NCBI GenBank assembly: GCA_020723345.1
Contig: DYJA01000042.1
Coordinates: forward strand, 1-50,489
DNA: 50,489 nucleotides
Reading direction: 5' to 3'
DNA from: Candidatus Aquidulcis sp.
GTDB taxonomy: Bacteria > Chloroflexota > Anaerolineae > UBA4142
Shown: piece by piece, positions 27,074-47,081 of the stretch
Position numbering within the stretch: position 1 is the stretch's first letter
Layout: the number at the start of each line of letters is the position of its first letter
The notes under the pieces: model-generated
What the model was told of the DNA's origin: nothing
The model's input: only the letters and a program-made list of their open reading frames with translations
Database searches by the model: none
Translations under genes and position numbers: made by a program

Positions 27074-27656
27074 GCGGCGCGAAGGAGTGGAGCGGATTGG
27101 ATTGCCGGTTGCGCTAACTCGCGGCGCGCTTGGTCGCCGTGTGAATGATCTGCACCGCGAACAAGATCGCCACCAAGCCACAAACGATGCTGACGATGCC
27201 GAGCGGCATCATATAGGGACCCAAGACGGCGTTCAACGCTTCGCCTTTCACTCCGGCTTTGAACGCCAGCCCCCCGCTGATGCCAGCCCCGATCATCAAC
27301 ACCGCGTTGAGCGGAATGAGAATGGCTTCCGACCAAAAGACCCAGTTGACCAGCCGGGGCCAAGAAAGCGGATTCCCTGAGACGAGTGGCACCAGATAGT
27401 ACAGCGCCCCCATCAGCGCCAGTGAAATCCAGCCGAGCGTGCCGATATGAACGTGCGCGCCGACGATGATGCCCGCCGGTCCGAGTTCGAGAAACTCGTG
27501 GATCGGCTGCTGGGATTGCAGTGCGCCTTGCACGGTGACCCAGATGAAGAACAGCGCCGACGCGACGAAGAACTTGGTAATGGATTTATTGTTCATGATT
27601 CTTCCTCCTTCAGAAGAAATTAACTCACGTGAATCCGCTCCACTCCTTCGCGCCGC
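27074..27656. mobile_element. 583-bp unit bounded by perfect 25-bp inverted repeats
   Basis: The left end (27074-27098, containing GAAGGAGTGGAGCGGATT) and right end (27632-27656, containing AATCCGCTCCACTCCTTC) are exact reverse complements over 25 bp. Between them lies one complete gene, 27114-27596, and no transposase. No flanking target duplication is obvious. A non-autonomous cassette mobilised in trans, an invertible segment, or a hairpin pair controlling the gene are the options. Confidence 0.55.
27114..27596 (-). CDS. Short CcoN/NorB-like membrane protein
   Basis: A 160-residue protein with four or five transmembrane helices that resembles the start of haem-copper oxidase subunit I of the cbb3/NO-reductase branch: FFVASALFFIWVTVQGALQS, then GAHVHIGTLGWISLALMGAL with His residues in the place of a haem ligand, and three more helices. 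True oxidases have at least 12 helices, so this is a stand-alone miniature relative; many are annotated as cbb3 subunit I. Haem or NO binding is a guess. AAGGAGGAAGAATC precedes ATG 27596. It is flanked by perfect inverted repeats, and broken copies lie at 35663-35801 and near 40836-40880. Confidence 0.72.
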   Translation of the reverse strand: MNNKSITKFFVASALFFIWVTVQGALQSQQPIHEFLELGPAGIIVGAHVHIGTLGWISLALMGALYYLVPLVSGNPLSWPRLVNWVFWSEAILIPLNAVLMIGAGISGGLAFKAGVKGEALNAVLGPYMMPLGIVSIVCGLVAILFAVQIIHTATKRAAS

Positions 27657-27721: not shown

Positions 27722-28123
27722 TCACGAACCAGGCATCAACCCCAATTGTTTCGCCATTGTCGCCGAGTCGTAGTACAACCGCGCGCGTCGAATCACGCCT
27801 CCTTCGACATCGTAGACGGCGCACATCGGAATCTCGACGCGCTTGCCGGTGGGCGGCAAACCCATCAGCGAACCCGTGTTGACGCCGTGGAATGTGAATT
27901 CCAGAATGACGGACTTGTCATCGGCGGCAAGGTTGCGCGGTTCCGCGCGTGCGTCGGAGAATGCCGTGTGATAGAACATATCGAGCATCGCGCCGATTGC
28001 CTCGCGACCGCGCAGCGGCTCCGCCTGACTGTAATCGTGAAAGGTGGCGTCCGCCGCCATGAACTTGGGATCGTGATTCGCCATGTAACCTTGGACGATT
28101 TGGATGTTGTCTTGTGCTGACAT
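27722..28123 (-). CDS. SnoaL-like (NTF2-fold) ester cyclase family protein
   Basis: A 133-residue cystatin/NTF2-like protein: DATFHDYSQAEPLRGREAIG, MFYHTAFSDARAEP, ILEFTFHGVNTGSLMGLPPT and a C-terminal RARLYYDSATMAKQLGLMP. This matches SnoaL-like polyketide cyclase/ester cyclase proteins, many of which only bind small molecules or have unassigned roles. AAAAGGAGAAAAA precedes the ATG. It follows the candidate selenoprotein methyltransferase on the same strand with a 39-bp gap and is probably cotranscribed with it. Confidence 0.85.
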   Translation of the reverse strand: MSAQDNIQIVQGYMANHDPKFMAADATFHDYSQAEPLRGREAIGAMLDMFYHTAFSDARAEPRNLAADDKSVILEFTFHGVNTGSLMGLPPTGKRVEIPMCAVYDVEGGVIRRARLYYDSATMAKQLGLMPGS

Positions 28124-28162: not shown

Positions 28163-28948
28163 CTACAACGGCTTGCGCGCGCGGAAACTGATGCCTTGCG
28201 TACCGAACTCGAGCGCGTCGGACGGGTCAGGCACATCCTCATAGTTGTTGTACTTGTGGACGATTTCCGCGTCTGCAAAACCGGCGGCGCGGACGGCGCG
28301 GAGCAACTCTGCATCCAGCAGAGCCCCGGCGATTCAGCCCGTCCACAGCGAAATGTCGTCCATCGCGCTGGCGGGTACCGCGTGCTCGACCAGAATATCT
28401 CCTGCCTGCAAGCGCCCGCCCGGCTTGAGAACGCGCAACCACTCGCGCAGTGTCGCGGTTTTGTCGAGCGTGAGATTGAGGACGCCGTTGCTGATCACCG
28501 CGTCCGCATAGTTGTCGGGCAGGGGCAGGGATTCAGCCAGTCCCTCGCGGAACTCGACGTTCGTCGCGCCCATCGCCGCCGCGCCGGCGCGCGCCTTGTT
28601 CAACATCTCCGCCGTCATATCGAACCCGATGACGCGACCGGACGCGCCGACCAGTCGCGACGCGATGAGCGAATCGAAGCCCGCGCCGGAGCCAACATCC
28701 ACGATCGTCTCGCCGGGATTGAGCGCGCCAACCGAGAACGGGTTGCCCGTCCCGGCAAACGAGGCGATGTTGCTTTCGGGAAGGTCAGCGTACAGTTTTT
28801 CATCGTAGCCGAGCAGGGACGCGAGGCGGCGTCCGGTGTGGAAATGGTAACCCTTGTTCGGATCGAGCGCGACGTTGGTGTATTCTTTTTTGATTTCCAG
28901 TCGCAGTTGATCCAGCGAAATTTTAGGAACAGGTTGCTGTGCAGTCAT
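28163..28948 (-). CDS. UbiE/ArsM-type methyltransferase with in-frame UGA (candidate selenocysteine at residue 205)
   Basis: Read through one UGA (28336-28334), this is a complete 261-residue class I methyltransferase: TIVDVGSGAGFDSLIASRLV (SAM motif I), VIGFDMTAEMLNKARAGA, ISNGVLNLTLDK, and after the UGA IAGALLDAELLRAVRAAGFA to a C-terminal strand ending in RARKPL and UAG. Relatives have Cys in the motif LWTGC(I/V)AGAL; here that Cys codon is UGA. Sixteen bases after the UGA an RNA stem CTCTGC/GCAGAG with loop UGGAU, extended by a lower helix, fits a bacterial SECIS. The rest of the protein has no Cys. Reading without recoding gives a truncated 204-residue protein. Alternatively it is a recent nonsense mutant. 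AGGAG-like signal is near ATG 28948. Confidence 0.7.
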
Positions 28949-28993
28949 TGGTTTTCTCCTGGGTGACCGCTTACATTGCCATCATTTCACGTT

Positions 28994-29398
28994 TCACGCC
29001 TTCGCCTTCTGCGCGATCAATTGAATCGCCTTGGCGACACCCGCGATTGGGTTTGAGAGCGTTGACGCGACCACTTGAAAAATATCGTCGGACATTCCCG
29101 CCAGAAATTTCAGCCACCGCTCCACTTTGGCGGGATTGGCTTGCTCGCCCTTTTTGACTTCTTGCTCGATTTTCTGGACCGTGTCTTTGATTTCGGCTTT
29201 GTCCGCGTTGGGGTCTTGAGGGCGCGCGTCAATCTTCTGATAAATTTGCGCGAACTGCTTCGTCAGTTCCGCCAGCGCAGACGCGTCGAGTCCGTAGGAA
29301 TCCGTCGTGATTTTGTCGCGGCCGACGATATCGCCGCCAACCGTGACCTTGCCGCCCGTGATACTTACACCCCCCTCGGTTTTCTGACCATCCGACAT
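28994..29398 (-). CDS. Protein with N-terminal VGGD-VGRD motif and helical C-terminus
   Basis: A 134-residue protein without signal peptide. Residues 7-26 are GGVSITGGKVTVGGDIVGRD, a glycine-rich beta pattern shared with the adjacent gene 29426-30313. The middle is helical and charged (LAELTKQFAQIYQKIDARPQ; KAEIKDTVQKIEQEVKKGE), then a more hydrophobic helix pair (WLKFLAGMSDDIFQVVASTL). AGGGG is 6 bases before the ATG at 29398. Short VxxGGDxxGRDK-type motifs occur at the ends of bacterial signalling and conflict proteins and may mediate homotypic assembly; that is inference. Otherwise unrecognised. Confidence 0.6.
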   Translation of the reverse strand: MSDGQKTEGGVSITGGKVTVGGDIVGRDKITTDSYGLDASALAELTKQFAQIYQKIDARPQDPNADKAEIKDTVQKIEQEVKKGEQANPAKVERWLKFLAGMSDDIFQVVASTLSNPIAGVAKAIQLIAQKAKA

Positions 29399-29425
29399 AG
29401 TAACCCCTTTCAGATTCTGCAATCC

Positions 29426-30313
29426 TCACCGCCTCACCCCTGTCACTTGCCACTCGCGCGGAGCGGCTGGTATGGACGGGGTAACATCCACGATTGTCTC
29501 CAATTTTACCCGACCAAGAATCGAGTCCGCCACTTGCGTTACCTGTGATTGCACAAAGAGAGTGGGCACAGCCACCCAACCGAAATCCGAGTTTGGAATC
29601 TGCAGGATTTGGACAGCCATCCACTCGAGTTCCAGCGGCGAGGCGCTCGTGCCGACCTTAAATGTAGCGGCGAATGGCAGGTTGCTCAGAGCGGTCCACT
29701 TTCCACCCACGGCGATGCGACCTGGTGCGATATAGCGCACCTTGGGTTCGCTCACGCCGATTCTCGGTCCCAAGATGAAACGCAAGTAGGAACTACTTTC
29801 CACTTCAGTGGTCTTGGTAGAAAAGGTCTGCCCCGATGAGAGCGCGTTCAGCGCGTTTAGTCTCTGATCCATCTGTTGGGCGGCTTCCAGCGACGTTTCG
29901 ACCGGTCGGTTCAATGCGAGAAAGATCGAGCCGCCGAGAACAATTCCCCCGGAGAAGAAACAGGTCGCCGTGAGCAAGAAACAGAACCCGACTGCCAGGA
30001 TCATCCCGCCGATCATGAATACCAGGCGCTGAACAGCCGCCGCGCCGAGACCGGTTTGCGATATCTTCACAACGTCACGCCCAGCGACATCACCTCCGAC
30101 CTGCACTCGACCGCCACTCACCTTCACGCCGCCGCTTGGCTCGCGGCGTACCGGTTCACCCCGGGGAAGATCAGCCGGAGCGGGGGTGGGCGTTTGAGCG
30201 AGCACACCAGACAAAGGGAGCGCGGCTTTGGATAGCGACTCGCCACAATTCTCACAGAATTTTGCCTGATCGCGATTCTCCGTTTGGCAATTGAGGCAAG
30301 TGTTCATTTTCAT
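29426..30313 (-). CDS. Zinc-ribbon membrane protein with VGGD-VGRD motif
   Basis: A 295-residue protein. It begins with a zinc ribbon (CLNCQTENRDQAKFCENCGE), then a Pro/Thr linker, then GGVKVSGGRVQVGGDVAGRD, the same motif as in the downstream gene. Two transmembrane helices follow (LVFMIGGMILAVGFCFLLTA; FFSGGIVLGGSIFLAL) and an external or cytosolic C-terminal domain of about 150 residues with many beta-strand-like segments (FILGPRIGVSEPKVRYIAPG; WMAVQILQIPNSDFGW). Start 30313 or 30307 (AGGA between) cannot be separated. The domain matches no family I know. It ends 27 bp before the next gene, so the two motif proteins are an operon. Confidence 0.6.
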   Translation of the reverse strand: MKMNTCLNCQTENRDQAKFCENCGESLSKAALPLSGVLAQTPTPAPADLPRGEPVRREPSGGVKVSGGRVQVGGDVAGRDVVKISQTGLGAAAVQRLVFMIGGMILAVGFCFLLTATCFFSGGIVLGGSIFLALNRPVETSLEAAQQMDQRLNALNALSSGQTFSTKTTEVESSSYLRFILGPRIGVSEPKVRYIAPGRIAVGGKWTALSNLPFAATFKVGTSASPLELEWMAVQILQIPNSDFGWVAVPTLFVQSQVTQVADSILGRVKLETIVDVTPSIPAAPREWQVTGVRR

Positions 30314-30374
30314 CCTGAAATCCCCGCCAATCGCGGGGAGCAAAACCCGCGGCCGCGCACCGAGCGGAGCGAAT

Positions 30375-30431
30375 TTACTTTCCTCCTCCAATTTGATTCA
30401 TCGAAATAATCCAACCGTGTTTGGGATCCAT
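30375..30431 (-). CDS. Possible 18-residue leader or micro-protein
   Basis: ATG 30431 is preceded by GGGGAGGAAACACA, one of the strongest ribosome binding sites in the window. It opens an 18-codon frame, MDPKHGWIISMNQIGGGK, ending 62 bp before the zinc-ribbon gene start. It may be a real micro-protein, a leader peptide coupled to the gene below, or the start of a gene lost to decay. Confidence 0.35.
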   Translation of the reverse strand: MDPKHGWIISMNQIGGGK

Positions 30432-33644: not shown

Positions 33645-34319
33645 TCAAACGGACGCCAGTTCCGGCACGCGCTTGACGATCGCCGCCCAATCGGCGGATG
33701 AAAAGCGCGCCTTGACGCCGGCGCTCAAACCGCGAAATGCTTCGGCGGGAAGCGCGCGCATCAACGTCCGCAACATATCTTCCCGCTCGTCGAGCGTCAG
33801 CGCGTTCAGCATCCAGGGCATCAGGGGGCGCATCATTTCCGGCGGAATGTGACCGACGATGCGCCCCGCCATCGCGCCCTGTTCTTCCACGCTAAAGTGC
33901 GCGTCCAACAGCGGAAGGAGTTGTTCTTCTTCCTTCCAGATGTGCAGACTCAACGTGGCGTTGAGCGCGGTAACGCGCTGGCTCAGTTGGCGCGATGACT
34001 CGTCGCGTGACGCTCCCGCCGCGCGCGCGAGTTGCGCCAGCGTCGTCCCGATCTCGGCAAATATTTTTCGTTCGTACTGGTGATCGAGCGCGTAGGCGCG
34101 GGTCACTTGGGGCACCCGGCTGTCGAGCGCGGGGTACATCACCTCGTCCTCTCCGGCGGCGTGCAGTTCCACCACCTCGCGCAAGAAATCGACGCGTTGC
34201 GTGAAAGTCGAGACGCGCTGCGCGTCTCCATCAACGCTTCGCGCCAACGTCTCGAGGGCATCGAGTTCGTGGCGGATCGCTTTGTGGATGTAGCGAAAAC
34301 CGTTCATCGGTGCAGCCAT
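33645..34319 (-). CDS. Hemerythrin-like HHE domain protein
   Basis: A 224-residue protein with a hemerythrin HHE-type four-helix bundle in the first ~150 residues. Iron ligands can be read as IHKAIRHELD (His, His), VVELHAAGEDEVMYPAL (His, Glu, Glu), LDHQYERKIF (His), and SLHIWKEEEQLLPLL (His, Glu). Such di-iron proteins bind O2 or NO, or repair iron-sulfur clusters under nitrosative stress. The C-terminal 70 residues are an additional helical domain (MLNALTLDEREDMLRTLMRA). AAGGAGGTATGTT precedes the ATG. With the neighbouring DinB/rubredoxin and DsrE genes it forms a probable redox-stress group on the minus strand. Confidence 0.88.
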   Translation of the reverse strand: MAAPMNGFRYIHKAIRHELDALETLARSVDGDAQRVSTFTQRVDFLREVVELHAAGEDEVMYPALDSRVPQVTRAYALDHQYERKIFAEIGTTLAQLARAAGASRDESSRQLSQRVTALNATLSLHIWKEEEQLLPLLDAHFSVEEQGAMAGRIVGHIPPEMMRPLMPWMLNALTLDEREDMLRTLMRALPAEAFRGLSAGVKARFSSADWAAIVKRVPELASV

Positions 34320-34352
34320 AACATACCTCCTTGAATTTTACTCTGTGCTTGG

Positions 34353-35237
34353 TCACCCGCGCCGCAACAACGCAATCTGGGGGAGATGCGTGATCTCGTG
34401 CGCGGCAAAGTAACTGACCTGTTGGCGCAGTGTCACCGCGCCGAACTCTTCGTGCTCGCCCGTTCGCCACCAATACGCGAGCGGAATTTTATCCAACTTG
34501 CTTAGCATTTCCGCACGCGATGCTTTGTACGTTTCCAAAATCTCGCGCGTGAGAGGCGGTCGTTCGTTCTCGTTCGTCGCCCACGCGAACACGGCTTTCG
34601 ATTCCAAAATCGGATGTTCGTTTTGCAAAAACAAATCAACCCGAAAACTGATCACGCCTTGCGCGTCGCGCAAATGCGAGACGATGTTTCGAATCGCCCA
34701 GCCGCCATCGCTCGCGGGTTGGTTCATCGCGTCCTCGGACAATCCTTGCAACAGCGCCGCCACTTCGAGCGGCGTTTGTCGCAATTTCTCCAACGCGGCA
34801 AGCGGTTCGAACGCATCGAGCCAATACACGGGAAGAAAGCGTTGATAGGTGCTTGCCCACGCGCCGCACATCGGACATTTTTCTGGCGGCTCGCCAAGCG
34901 CCAAGTGACCGCACGCGCGACAGACGTACGGATGCGGCGTCTCGCGGATCAGCGGCAATCGCCCTTGCGCCATTGCGGCGGCGCCGCGTTTGAGCGCAAC
35001 CAATAAATTTTCGTCCACGTCAAAACTGGATAATGCGTCAACTGTCTGTTCGAGGTCGGCGACCAGTTCATCCTTGTTAGATGGAATAGTGAGTGAGTAG
35101 GCAGCGCGACGGAGAAACGAATCCGCAGTAGCGCGCGCCAACTTGGCAAGGTTGTATTGCCCTTCGCCTTCCAATCGGCTAGCCAGAGCCAGCAGATGCA
35201 AAACGATGTTTTTCCGTTCCGTGTTTTCAATTGCCAT
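34353..35237 (-). CDS. DinB-like protein with rubredoxin-like zinc ribbon
   Basis: A 294-residue two-part protein. Near residue 110 a rubrerythrin-type iron/zinc site, YVCRACGHLALGEPPEKCPMC (two CxxC knuckles), separates an N-terminal helical domain from a C-terminal DinB-like four-helix bundle with GGWAIRNIVSHLRDAQ and YFAAHEITHLPQIALL, which supply the His residues of the metal site. DinB proteins are metal-dependent thiol transferases or S-transferase relatives. The combination suggests a redox or thiol function. It lies 34 bp upstream of the hemerythrin gene. Substrate unknown. Confidence 0.8.
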   Translation of the reverse strand: MAIENTERKNIVLHLLALASRLEGEGQYNLAKLARATADSFLRRAAYSLTIPSNKDELVADLEQTVDALSSFDVDENLLVALKRGAAAMAQGRLPLIRETPHPYVCRACGHLALGEPPEKCPMCGAWASTYQRFLPVYWLDAFEPLAALEKLRQTPLEVAALLQGLSEDAMNQPASDGGWAIRNIVSHLRDAQGVISFRVDLFLQNEHPILESKAVFAWATNENERPPLTREILETYKASRAEMLSKLDKIPLAYWWRTGEHEEFGAVTLRQQVSYFAAHEITHLPQIALLRRG

Positions 35238-35266
35238 GCGCGAATTTCCTTTCTGACCTTGCCCAG

Positions 35267-35629
35267 CTAATACGTAAATATGCGGTCATGCTCCAACGAT
35301 AGACGGACCAGTACGTTGGGCATCGCAAACTCGGCGGGCTTGCCGCTCAAATCCGCGTCTGTCACGCCGCGCGCTTTGCTCGACATGCCGGACAAATAGA
35401 AGCGACCGCCCCCTGCAACGATCGCGTCGTAGAGTTCGCGCAGTTTTCCTGTGCCCAAGCCCGTGAGGTTGTCGAGAACGGCGTCGCGAATCAATTGAAC
35501 TGCGTCTCCAGCGAGAAACAATGAAACGGAGTGACCTTCATCAAGGGCTGTCTTCGCCACGAGAAAACCGAGCGCGGCGCGCGTAGGTTGCTCTGGACCG
35601 TGCGTCACATGAACGAGAATCTTCGACAT
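35267..35629 (-). CDS. DsrE family protein
   Basis: A 120-residue DsrE/DsrF-like protein: MSKILVHVTHGPEQPTRAAL, AKTALDEGHSVSLFLAGDAV and a C-terminal GGRFYLSGMSSKARGV. The family includes sulfur-relay proteins and single-domain proteins near redox genes; the catalytic Cys of true sulfur carriers is absent here, only Ser-Lys (SGMSSKARG) remaining, so a binding role is more likely. GGGAGGAGGCAG precedes the ATG. The gene starts right where a truncated copy of the CcoN-like gene ends. Confidence 0.8.
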   Translation of the reverse strand: MSKILVHVTHGPEQPTRAALGFLVAKTALDEGHSVSLFLAGDAVQLIRDAVLDNLTGLGTGKLRELYDAIVAGGGRFYLSGMSSKARGVTDADLSGKPAEFAMPNVLVRLSLEHDRIFTY

Positions 35630-35662
35630 GATTCTGCCTCCTCCCTTTGGTTTCACACAAAC

Positions 35663-35801
35663 GGATGATGATGCCTGCCGGCCCGAGTTCGAGAAACTCG
35701 TGTACCGGTTGCTGGGCTTGCAGCGCGCCTTGCACTGTGACCCAGATGAAAAACAGCGCCGACGCGACGAAGAATTTCGTGAGCGATTTGTTGTCGTTCA
35801 T
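35663..35801 (-). pseudogene. Truncated copy (N-terminus) of the CcoN-like gene
   Basis: Reads MNDNKSLTKFFVASALFFIW then VTVQGALQAQQPVHEFLELG and PAGII, about 85 percent identical at DNA level to the first 138 bases of 27114-27596. After 35663 the frame runs into the DsrE leader and codes unrelated sequence to 35541. It retains a ribosome binding site, so it could express a one-helix peptide. Confidence 0.8.
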
Positions 35802-35868
35802 GGTTTTCCTCCCGACATCAGATACATCGCTTCGCCGCGGGGGCTATTTAGAACAATCCACAGCCGGT

Positions 35869-36666
35869 TCAGGGAGACCTACTCGTTCCCTCGACCTCCC
35901 AGGTCTCTTCGCAGGGTTGCCCAGTAATGCGATATTTGCCGCGCAGGAGGACGACCGCAGCGGATTGATACGTGAGCTTGCCCTCGAAAATCTCCCCCAG
36001 CCCGGCGCCGATGTTGATCGTGCCCTTCGCCGTGAAATCACCCGTCGCGGGGTTGACTGTTCCTTCGTACTTGTTTGGTCCGTTGAGCATGTTCAGTTTG
36101 ATCGTGTTTTTCTCGATCGTCACGTTGTAGGCGAGCCGCGCATTGGGCGAGCCGCACTTGGTCGCCTTCAAATTCGCATCGATAACAATAAAAGGCGGCA
36201 GTGGTCGCGGCGATGGAGTTCCGCCGACGAGCGGCGTCGGGGGCAAATCACCGCGCGGTGTCGCCGTATGCGTGCGCGTGGGGGTGATGTCGCGCGGCGT
36301 GGATGTGCGTGTGGGCGTGTTGGGCGGCGGAGGTGGCACGAGGGTCAACGTGAGCGTGCGCGTGATCGGTGTTGGCGTGAAGGTGGCAGTTGGGGTGTGT
36401 GTCGTGGTCGCGGCGAACGCGGCAATCTGCGTCGCGCCCGACGCAAATGGAAGCGCCAGCGCGCACATCGCGATACTCAACCCGAACGCGGACGACGCGA
36501 GCGCGAGGACGAGCGCGCCGTTCGATCCGAACGCGCCCGCGCCGGATTTGTTTTTCAAAGACTGCCAGCGCCACCATACCGCCACGCCGAGCGCACCCAA
36601 CAGCAAACCGATGACGATGACGATGGGACGTAGCGGACTGTCGAGCAATCGGAGCAGAAACTCCAT
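35869..36666 (-). CDS. Membrane-anchored protein with Thr/Pro linker and C-terminal beta domain
   Basis: A 265-residue protein. Two hydrophobic segments (PIVIVIGLLLGALGVAVWW; NGALVLALASSAFGLSIAMC and LALPFASG) anchor it; then a long Thr/Pro-rich stalk, T-P-T-x repeats over about 65 residues; and an extracytoplasmic domain of about 115 residues beginning at PFIVIDANLKATKCGSPN, with beta-strand-like segments (YNVTIEKNTIKLNMLNG; GKYRITGQPCEETWEVEG) and two Cys that can pair. AGAGGT precedes ATG 36666; the upstream extension is rejected. It is the last gene of the 40.8-35.9 kb surface cluster. Unknown family. Confidence 0.65.
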   Translation of the reverse strand: MEFLLRLLDSPLRPIVIVIGLLLGALGVAVWWRWQSLKNKSGAGAFGSNGALVLALASSAFGLSIAMCALALPFASGATQIAAFAATTTHTPTATFTPTPITRTLTLTLVPPPPPNTPTRTSTPRDITPTRTHTATPRGDLPPTPLVGGTPSPRPLPPFIVIDANLKATKCGSPNARLAYNVTIEKNTIKLNMLNGPNKYEGTVNPATGDFTAKGTINIGAGLGEIFEGKLTYQSAAVVLLRGKYRITGQPCEETWEVEGTSRSP

Positions 36667-41586: not shown

Positions 41587-42291
41587 TTACACTTGCCCTG
41601 GCGGGAACGCAAGTGCCAGGGTTCGTTCCTCATTCGTTGACACCAACCGCGCCGCCTCCGCTTCCAAAAACGCGAGCATCTCCAGCGCGATTTGCCGATA
41701 GAACTCATTCTCACTGTGCGCGGCAATCGCGCTCGCCACTTTTTTCGCGGCGGGATACAGATGCTCCGCGAAAAACTTTTGCTGCGCGTCGAAACAGACC
41801 GCGGCTTTGTCTTCCGAATCGGCAAGCGTACTACTCTCCAACGCGTACAAGCGCTTGTAAACGAGATAGTGCATAAACTCGAACTCGCACGCCAGCGCGT
41901 CGGGGCGGTCGCTGCCAGGCGCCACGCCGAACGCGCGATAAAAACCCATCACGTCCGCGAGAATTTGCGCGCGCTGAAATTCGTTTTGCGCGACATGCTC
42001 CGCGCCGTAGAGCCAGATTTCTTTCGCGCGAAAAAGGCGGTCGTGTTCCAGCGCGAGTTGGTCGGCATCAGCCGCGACGTCGGAAAAGAACGCGGCAAAA
42101 CCCGCGTCGGGGTACGTGAGCGCGACCGCAAAGCGTTTGTATTGCAACATCCGCTCGAAATCCGCGTGTAGACCTTCGAGGTTTCCGGAAACCTCGAAGG
42201 TCTGTGGAACGTCGCGGGCGTGGAGACCTGTCAGGTTTCCAGAAACCTGACAGGTCTTTCCAACATCACGTAACGCTGTGTCGGTAGACAT
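41587..42291 (-). CDS. TorD/DmsD-like molybdoenzyme chaperone with repeat-derived N-terminus
   Basis: A 234-residue all-helical chaperone of the TorD family, which binds the Tat signal and helps insert the molybdenum cofactor. Markers are VMGFYRAFGVAPGSDRPDAL and ACEFEFMHYLVYKRLYAL, the E-F-E-F-M-x-x-L core, and a C-terminal helical bundle. Residues 13-43 are unusual: TCQVSGNLTGLHA and TFEVSGNLEGLHA, an 18-residue tandem repeat coded by two family D palindromes. Start 42291 follows GGAGAGCGCG and lies inside the end of the beta-subunit gene, so translation is coupled. Partner: the alpha subunit at 43585-47010. Confidence 0.85.
   Translation of the reverse strand: MSTDTALRDVGKTCQVSGNLTGLHARDVPQTFEVSGNLEGLHADFERMLQYKRFAVALTYPDAGFAAFFSDVAADADQLALEHDRLFRAKEIWLYGAEHVAQNEFQRAQILADVMGFYRAFGVAPGSDRPDALACEFEFMHYLVYKRLYALESSTLADSEDKAAVCFDAQQKFFAEHLYPAAKKVASAIAAHSENEFYRQIALEMLAFLEAEAARLVSTNEERTLALAFPPGQV
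42170..42203. repeat. Family D palindrome inside the chaperone gene (copy 2)
   Basis: A 34-bp palindrome with arms AGACCTTCGAGGTTTCC and GGAAACCTCGAAGGTCT. It encodes the second SGNL-type peptide. Centre-to-centre distance from copy 1 is 54 bp, exactly 18 codons. Confidence 0.9.
42224..42257. repeat. Family D palindrome inside the chaperone gene (copy 1)
   Basis: A 34-bp palindrome with arms AGACCTGTCAGGTTTCC and AGAAACCTGACAGGTCT. It encodes the first SGNL-type peptide; nearly the same sequence occurs between genes at 13338-13371. Confidence 0.9.
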
Positions 42292-43408
42292 CGCGCTCTC
42301 CATCGTACTCACTTCGAATGATGATTGGCTCTTTCATCGGCACGCGCACGATTTCGGCGCGGCTGGAATCGTAACTGAAAATCTTTCCGTCGCCGATGCC
42401 GCCGTCCACTTTGAACGCGTGCGTGATTTGCTCGGTCGCGCCAAAGAGCATCAGCAAGCCGACCAGGTTTTTGTCCTCGACCGCGCGCTTGTACATTTCG
42501 ACTGCGCGCGGCGCGCCTGGACCGAAGAGTTGCTTGTTGAACGCGTCGGGCGCGTTGATCGGCGGGATGTAGTACACGTTCGGCTCCAAGCCGAATTGCG
42601 GATAGAGCGGCAGCGCGATTTTTTTGATGTGCACCAGATAATCAATCGGATTGTCCTCGCGTGCCTTGTCCCAGCGACTGAGAAAACCCGCCAGTCGGAT
42701 TCTGCCGATGCACGTCACGACGCATTGCGTCTGCCGTCCCTGCTCGATGGCGGGATAACACGCCACGCACTTTTCCGATTTGCCCGTGTACGCGCGAAAG
42801 AACGGCTTTTTGTACGGACACCCGCGCACACATTCGCGATAACCGCGACAGCGTCCCTGGTCAATCAAGACGATGCCATCTTCTTTGCGTTTGTAAATGG
42901 ATTTGCGCGGACACGCGGCGAGACACGCGGGAAAAGTGCAGTGATTACAAATCCGCTGGAGATAAAACATCCAGGGTTGCTGCGGCATGCGAATGAAATC
43001 ACTTTCCTTGATTGCGCTTGAAACTTCGTCCTCGCCGATATTGGGATATTGATAATCCTCTTCGTCGGGCAGGATGCCCAGCATCTCTTCGCCATACGAC
43101 GCGGCTTCGAAAATCGTTTTGCCCGTGTACTTGTCGCCGTCCCAGGTCTGCGGTCCGAGTTTTTCCAACAAGCGTACGTCCCAGCCGAGCGGATAAAAGC
43201 CCCACGGCTTGGTCTCGACGTTGTTCCAGAACATGTACTCCTGCCCCTTGCCCGCCGTCCACGTGTTCTTGCACGCGACGGTGCAGGTTTGGCAGGCGAT
43301 ACACTTGTTCGTGTCGAACACCCACGCGATTTGTTTTTCAGGACGCGCTTCCTGGTATTTGTACGGCATCGCGCGCTTGAGTTGCCAGTTGTAGACTGTG
43401 TTTGCCAT
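42266..43408 (-). CDS. Iron-sulfur beta subunit of a NarH/NxrB-like molybdoenzyme
   Basis: A 380-residue electron-transfer subunit with four cysteine sets: CIACQTCTVACKNTW, CNHCTFPACLAACPRKSIYK, CRGYRECVRGCPYKK, and CVACYPAIEQGRQTQC followed by CIGRIR. This is the layout of NarH, NxrB, SerB and DdhB: three 4Fe-4S clusters and one that may be 3Fe-4S. The protein is shorter than NarH (about 510), as in the periplasmic NXR-like and selenate/chlorate branch. It lacks its own signal and should travel with the Tat-exported alpha subunit. The chaperone gene overlaps its 3' end; the alpha gene is 176 bp upstream across a repeat. Confidence 0.92.
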   Translation of the reverse strand: MANTVYNWQLKRAMPYKYQEARPEKQIAWVFDTNKCIACQTCTVACKNTWTAGKGQEYMFWNNVETKPWGFYPLGWDVRLLEKLGPQTWDGDKYTGKTIFEAASYGEEMLGILPDEEDYQYPNIGEDEVSSAIKESDFIRMPQQPWMFYLQRICNHCTFPACLAACPRKSIYKRKEDGIVLIDQGRCRGYRECVRGCPYKKPFFRAYTGKSEKCVACYPAIEQGRQTQCVVTCIGRIRLAGFLSRWDKAREDNPIDYLVHIKKIALPLYPQFGLEPNVYYIPPINAPDAFNKQLFGPGAPRAVEMYKRAVEDKNLVGLLMLFGATEQITHAFKVDGGIGDGKIFSYDSSRAEIVRVPMKEPIIIRSEYDGERDVYRHSVT

Positions 43409-43427
43409 GGTTGATAACCTGCGAGCA

Positions 43428-43577
43428 TCCTGAGCGGAGCAGCGTCCTGAGCGGAACGAAGTGGAGTCGAAGGATTTGCTGCGGAGTCGAAGGATGCGTC
43501 AACGACAAGACGTCTTCCAATTCGACGCATCCTTCGACTACACTCCGCTGCGCTCCGTTTCGCTCAGGATGCTGCTC
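43428..43577. repeat. Family C repeat cluster between alpha and beta genes
   Basis: Several alternating copies of ATCCTGAGCGGA / TCCTTCGACTC and their complements (43428-43495 and 43527-43577) form an imperfect palindrome of about 150 bp that can fold into a large hairpin in the mRNA, giving room for alpha/beta expression differences. Confidence 0.8.
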
Positions 43578-43584
43578 GCGAGAA

Positions 43585-47010
<3,426 letters not shown>

Positions 47011-47081
47011 GTGATCTCCTTCAACCACGAGTGGGCGCGACATAGCCGACGGTGGCTATGCCTTCAAGACCCTATACGATC

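Follow-up and report, generated by a model that had tools for sequence, protein, structure and literature searches.

A Chloroflexota-wide clade of free-standing ArsM-like methyltransferases with a probable selenocysteine at the catalytic cysteine position

The window, by which we mean the whole stretch of DNA that was analyzed (50,489 nucleotides of a contig assigned to Candidatus Aquidulcis sp., Chloroflexota), carries on its minus strand a putative selenoprotein gene (28163..28948) for a 261-residue S-adenosylmethionine (SAM) methyltransferase of the ArsM superfamily, recognized by its open reading frame, profile matches, and fold. By reading of the frame, the gene begins with an ATG (28946-28948) located 7 nt after a Shine-Dalgarno-like AGGAG (28956..28960) and runs for 204 codons up to a single in-frame UGA (28334..28336), beyond which 56 sense codons lead to a TAG stop (28163-28165). 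The original prediction of a selenoprotein at this place had the position of the UGA and the length of the open continuation exactly right; the motif LWTG-U-IAGAL, as first noted, reads the same in the translation, and the whole 261-residue read-through product contains no Cys, again as had been claimed. An automatic pipeline would probably end the gene at the UGA and list a truncated methyltransferase of 204 residues, while the correct reading of the UGA restores its catalytic end.

A SnoaL-like/ketosteroid-isomerase-like gene, identified by a profile match, lies 39 nt after the TAG on the same strand (27722..28123) and is a possible operon partner. Close by are a gene for a small COX1-like protein (27114-27596) and two adjacent genes that share the glycine-rich motif GG.V.VGGD..GRD, one with a TCAD2 domain (28994-29422) and the other with a zinc ribbon (29426-30391). 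Farther along the window, the plus-strand ORF 35647-36633 appears to be antisense to a second COX1-like copy (about 35650-36630) and adjoins DsrE, rubredoxin/DinB, and hemerythrin genes (33645-35656). Positions 42266-47043 hold genes for a 1,152-residue molybdopterin oxidoreductase and, after it, a 4Fe-4S dicluster subunit.

A TGA was found at the identical codon in 32 orthologous loci of other Chloroflexota genomes, with protein identities of 45 to 87%, which is much more than expected by chance. These loci comprise four at 82 to 87% identity (L051-L054, from MAGs of Anaerolineales, Chloroflexi GWB2_49_20, and Caldilineales), one each in the genomes G045 (64%) and G066 (61%), and 26 from a sample of 400 genomes of the phylum, 30 of which (counting the genome of the window) had a match at E <= 1e-60. 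Four other orthologues (L060, L064, L071, and L072) have a Cys codon (TGT or TGC) at the site. Canonical ArsMs also have Cys at the aligned position, as do all other ArsM homologues in which the site was read, save two further groups with TGA (L107/L111/L110 and L108/L109). The alignment of homologues, proposed beforehand as a check, gave only Cys or Sec in every homologue examined and not a single unrelated residue. In a family tree built with the Sec/Cys site left out, the 33 Sec and four Cys members formed one clade (SH-aLRT 98), inside which the Cys members were nested in a manner that corresponds to three separate Sec-to-Cys changes.

Two side observations concern the spread of these genes. 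One contig in a Planctomycetota bin ends in a fragment with 81% identity to the window protein (L055), placed there either by misbinning or by recent transfer. The two further TGA groups, with the motifs AGULGGA (L107, L110, and L111) and WFAUIAGA (L108 and L109), are ArsM-like and deeply separate within the phylum, and Sec at this position may have a wider spread than the catalogued families.

A stop that interrupts a family domain usually signals a nonsense mutation, a pseudogene, or a sequencing error. Here, however, the same TGA recurs in 32 other loci distributed among many families of the phylum, the hairpin described below is conserved, and the codons beyond the UGA give low dN/dS values among close relatives: 0.03 to 0.19 in the five nearest orthologues, values similar to those of the pre-UGA part, and 0.27 and 0.46, also below 1, for two orthologues at 60 to 65% identity. 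The post-UGA codons are under purifying selection in close relatives, and we regard a defective gene as extremely improbable. A misread TGC or TGT, which the original prediction had named as a possible refutation, is ruled out by the same TGA in independent genomes, which likewise refute a nonsense mutation.

The same selection, which runs on to the TAG, bears on a conditional product, with a functional 204-residue short form made at low selenium and an equally functional long form otherwise. Decoding of UGA by SelB competes with the release factor in general, and the SAM-binding core lies within the 204-residue part, both of which would suit such an arrangement. Nevertheless, the short form would end before the catalytic position and the final strands, and orthologues of the Cys form are invariably translated to full length, so that we find two functional products quite improbable.

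A probable bacterial SECIS element (bSECIS) follows the UGA (28306..28324, minus strand), as judged from folding, recoding, and covariation, with the stem GCUCUGC/GCAGAGU and the loop UGGAU. Its 6-bp core (CTCTGC/GCAGAG) is lengthened by one G-U pair, and the loop begins 17 nt past the UGA (spacing of 16 nt) and has a G at its second position. With a 5-nt loop, 7 to 8 bp, and -11.0 to -11.8 kcal/mol, the window hairpin fits the published bSECIS criteria. The stem, loop, spacing, and G are therefore as originally claimed, and the hairpin covaries across the Sec genes (see below). The lower 5-bp helix that had been added to it changes with the size of the segment folded and lacks conservation among homologues, and it was dropped as a part of the SECIS. 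A search of Rfam returned no family for this SECIS, only two chance matches.

The encoded peptide does not by itself account for the stem, since synonymous recodings of the same peptide fold more weakly at the same place (mean of -5.1 versus -11.8 kcal/mol, p ~0.006). The same fixed-place comparison gave p ~0.02 or less in most other Sec genes and values from 0.2 to 0.98 in the four Cys genes. When any bSECIS-like hairpin was allowed across 16 to 37 nt, the window alone gave p = 0.11, and the comparative evidence therefore carries the weight. In a gap-free alignment of 31 distinct Sec genes, 95.4% of the cells were paired and 14 had changed on both sides, with compensatory examples such as U-A to C-G or G-C at columns 15/29 and G-C to C-G at columns 18/26. 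None of 500 shuffles equaled this alignment in pairing or covariation, and slid-partner controls were 24 to 52% paired. An energy of -7.5 kcal/mol was reached by 31 of 39 Sec genes versus 2 of 32 Cys genes, counts of related rows to which no formal probability attaches. The hairpin is weak or gone in the four Cys-form orthologues of the family (L060, L064, L071, and L072). Among 14 Sec genes compared, post-UGA codons 4, 5, and 9 are each represented by one codon only, and the neighboring synonymous sites vary.

The machinery was sought by family searches of the genomes. The genome of the window contains selB (361 bits, over the cut-off), selA (594 bits), selD (357 bits), and a tRNA-Sec with anticodon UCA (76 bits; ARAGORN likewise reports a tRNA-SeC(tca)), the full set that the original prediction had asked to be looked for. 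The selD gene (L114, contig C72 of this genome) has one in-frame TGA within the motif CAGUASKLG and is itself a selenoprotein gene. Of 27 further genomes that carry the TGA form, 25 had selB over the cut-off. The two remaining are MAGs that are 82% and 77% complete (G222 and G413), one of which has a clear tRNA-Sec; in G066, also with the TGA form, the tRNA-Sec is borderline only. Two Cys-form genomes (G274 and G375) lack both selB over the cut-off and a clear tRNA-Sec, and the other two (G341 and G329) keep both. However, selB is present in 301 of the 400 sampled Chloroflexota genomes (75%), so that co-occurrence of the machinery alone is weak evidence; for this reason, the presence of selB was rejected as strong support.

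The open frame, and nothing else, would equally suit a UGA read as some other amino acid or reassigned in this organism. Among 44 long ORFs in the window, however, 27 end in TGA, the commonest stop, a usage that excludes reassignment; in addition, every homologue without TGA has Cys at the site, and a SECIS, SelB, and tRNA-Sec are all present. The probability of either variant is minimal. Every check that the original prediction proposed and that can be computed was run or approximated, with all results in favor of the selenoprotein reading, and on this sequence evidence the in-frame UGA is almost certainly decoded as Sec.

An AlphaFold model built from 28 family members (mean pLDDT of 92.5) found its best PDB matches in CmArsM, CrArsM, and human AS3MT (TM of 0.67 to 0.73), with CmArsM (4fr0) at the top (0.71 to 0.73). 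Profile, model, and structure match agree on the SAM-binding core and the ArsM fold in the window protein. Of the UbiE/ArsM-type kinship first suggested, the ArsM-type relatives held, and UbiE proper did not. Alignment of the family profile with CmArsM pairs C72 with T67, C174 with G155, and C224 with U205. The arsenic ligands Cys72 and Cys174 are thus replaced by Thr67 (codon at 28748..28750, within FAGTGNP) and Gly155 (28484..28486, within SNG), both on the minus strand, and Cys224 is aligned with Sec205. SNG instead of SNC is found throughout the clade, also in the Cys forms. The clade-specific HFHTGR (residues 35-40; 28829..28846, minus strand), present in nearly all members, aligns with the N-terminal stretch that is Cys-rich in canonical ArsMs, a correspondence from which its spatial role is presumed.

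In CmArsM, the C174A and C224A mutants are inactive, the C72A mutant is unable to methylate iAs(III), C174 mutants show no activity on either iAs or MMA, and a single Cys is described as the requirement for dimethylarsenite (PMC3877260). A published criterion for ArsM is at least three of the four conserved Cys (44, 72, 174, and 224 in CmArsM) (PMC5552862); the window protein retains the position of Cys224 alone, as Sec, and this lone Sec marks a clade devoid of the other arsenic-binding Cys. The same genome (contig C73) also encodes a separate canonical ArsM (L106) with the motifs CGTP, SNC, and ACVSGA and all the arsenic-binding Cys.

Taken as a whole, we give a probability of roughly 85% to an explanation, built on sequence, in which the gene encodes a full-length Sec methyltransferase whose selenolate is the sole soft ligand or nucleophile and whose activity is probably not that of a classical arsenite methyltransferase. 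The product would be a class I SAM methyltransferase, 261 residues long and belonging to the ArsM superfamily, with SelB and tRNA-Sec decoding the in-frame UGA as Sec under the direction of the downstream hairpin. Sec205 would take the place of the catalytic, arsenic-binding Cys224, a functional replacement that we consider very probable, along with the changes of Cys72 to Thr and Cys174 to Gly. Since Sec205 is kept while the Cys72 and Cys174 ligands are gone, a single, strongly nucleophilic soft ligand would face the SAM site. We infer that the selenolate serves to bind or activate some soft substrate for transfer of the SAM methyl group, instead of contributing to a three-thiolate As(III) cage. 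Candidate substrates are a methylated arsenical, other metalloid or chalcogen species, or a thiol/persulfide, that is, a substrate class that would belong to metalloid or sulfur/selenium chemistry. A classical arsenite methyltransferase is improbable because the Cys ligands are gone, SNG is clade-wide, and a canonical ArsM is encoded in the same genome, and we lean toward a substrate other than inorganic arsenite.

The enzyme might still methylate arsenic if Sec205, alone or with a thiol such as glutathione, bound methylated or thiol-conjugated As(III), the lost Cys being unneeded with selenium. The closest characterized relatives in both fold and sequence are ArsM/AS3MT, NCBI and a 2026 review (PMC13188914) name Sec relatives arsenite methyltransferase, and the single Cys described for dimethylarsenite would agree with one remaining ligand. 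The inactivity of C174 mutants on both iAs and MMA points the other way, as do the canonical ArsM in the genome and the surroundings of the window gene, where no ars genes were recognized; moreover, the Cys-form orthologues are also SNG, so that ligand loss is independent of having Sec. We therefore consider an arsenic methyltransferase rather unlikely. A tentative alternative, scarcely firmer, is that the free-standing Chloroflexota Sec clade has moved off inorganic arsenic and that its lone selenolate, standing in for the three-thiolate arsenic cage, serves another reaction, for example, chalcogen or thiol/persulfide methylation, or a relay in which Sec itself takes up the methyl group (Se-methyl-Sec) and then hands it on.

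A conserved operon was sought around the orthologues, but the SnoaL-like neighbor is not shared and the neighbors vary among lineages. The recurrent ones, none of them beside the window gene, are OsmC (7 loci), DsrE (4), and DUF1326 with the copper chaperone PpoB2 (4), which give a loose hint of sulfur, metalloid, or metal chemistry. The OsmC-family gene is near the methyltransferase in seven lineages, several times adjacent (the loci listed for OsmC and DUF1326/PpoB2 are L054, L086, L087, L090, L094, L100, and L103), and OsmC or DUF1326 plus PpoB2 possibly form a functional unit with the methyltransferase.

Reading the UGA correctly reveals a Chloroflexota-wide clade around the window protein, a protein that the NCBIfam models do not capture at their cut-offs. 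Sec at the ArsM catalytic Cys, combined with the loss of the remaining arsenic ligands, makes the clade a natural experiment on the capacity of a lone soft ligand within the ArsM fold. It also tests what drives Sec/Cys exchange, with three Sec-to-Cys changes, two of them in genomes without clear Sec machinery.

Sec in ArsM-like proteins is already catalogued, and UGA recoding in such proteins is not new. The review (PMC13188914) lists a single-Sec ArsM type (NF008823/PRK11873 type, WP_011987699.1, motif UxxG), for which it cites Fomenko et al. 2007, and, from Haft and Tolstoy 2025, three fused ArsM double selenoproteins with a UxxG Sec site. The NF008823 type is, like the window protein, a stand-alone ArsM-type methyltransferase with a single Sec; it is homologous over residues 38-235, and U-I-A-G fits UxxG, although the window protein scores 213.7 bits against a curated cut-off of 263. 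The equivalents of Cys72 and Cys174 are gone in the window protein. Its best NCBIfam matches are the double selenoproteins Methyltransferase/UXPK-star (NF047649), ArsM/AhpD (NF041537), and ArsM/DUF2284 (NF041536), at about 228, 228, and 211 bits against cut-offs of 460, 510, and 575, leaving it below the cut-off of every NCBIfam model. These models also cover the N-terminal region, from residue 11-14 of the window protein, and share with it the UxxG Sec site in the methyltransferase domain (LWTGUIAGAL). In contrast to them, as compared through HMMs and the review only, the window protein has neither a second Sec nor a fused C-terminal domain. A search of 151 Chloroflexota genomes with NF047649 gave no match at E <= 1e-90 or over the cut-off, nor did any control match.

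Canonical ArsM and AS3MT (CmArsM 4fr0 and human AS3MT 8xt7) have the same fold and SAM-binding core, with Sec205 at the Cys224 site, whereas the window protein has Thr for Cys72, Gly for Cys174, HFHTGR for the Cys-rich stretch, and no Cys anywhere. The L107/L111 and L108/L109 groups resemble the window clade in their TGA at the same site and Gly for Cys174, but stand on separate long branches of the tree with other N-terminal motifs (HPFPxG in L108/L109). The window protein is a stand-alone variant of the catalogued UxxG Sec ArsM-type proteins, and it extends the documented Sec ArsM-like proteins by a free-standing version without the other arsenic-binding Cys.
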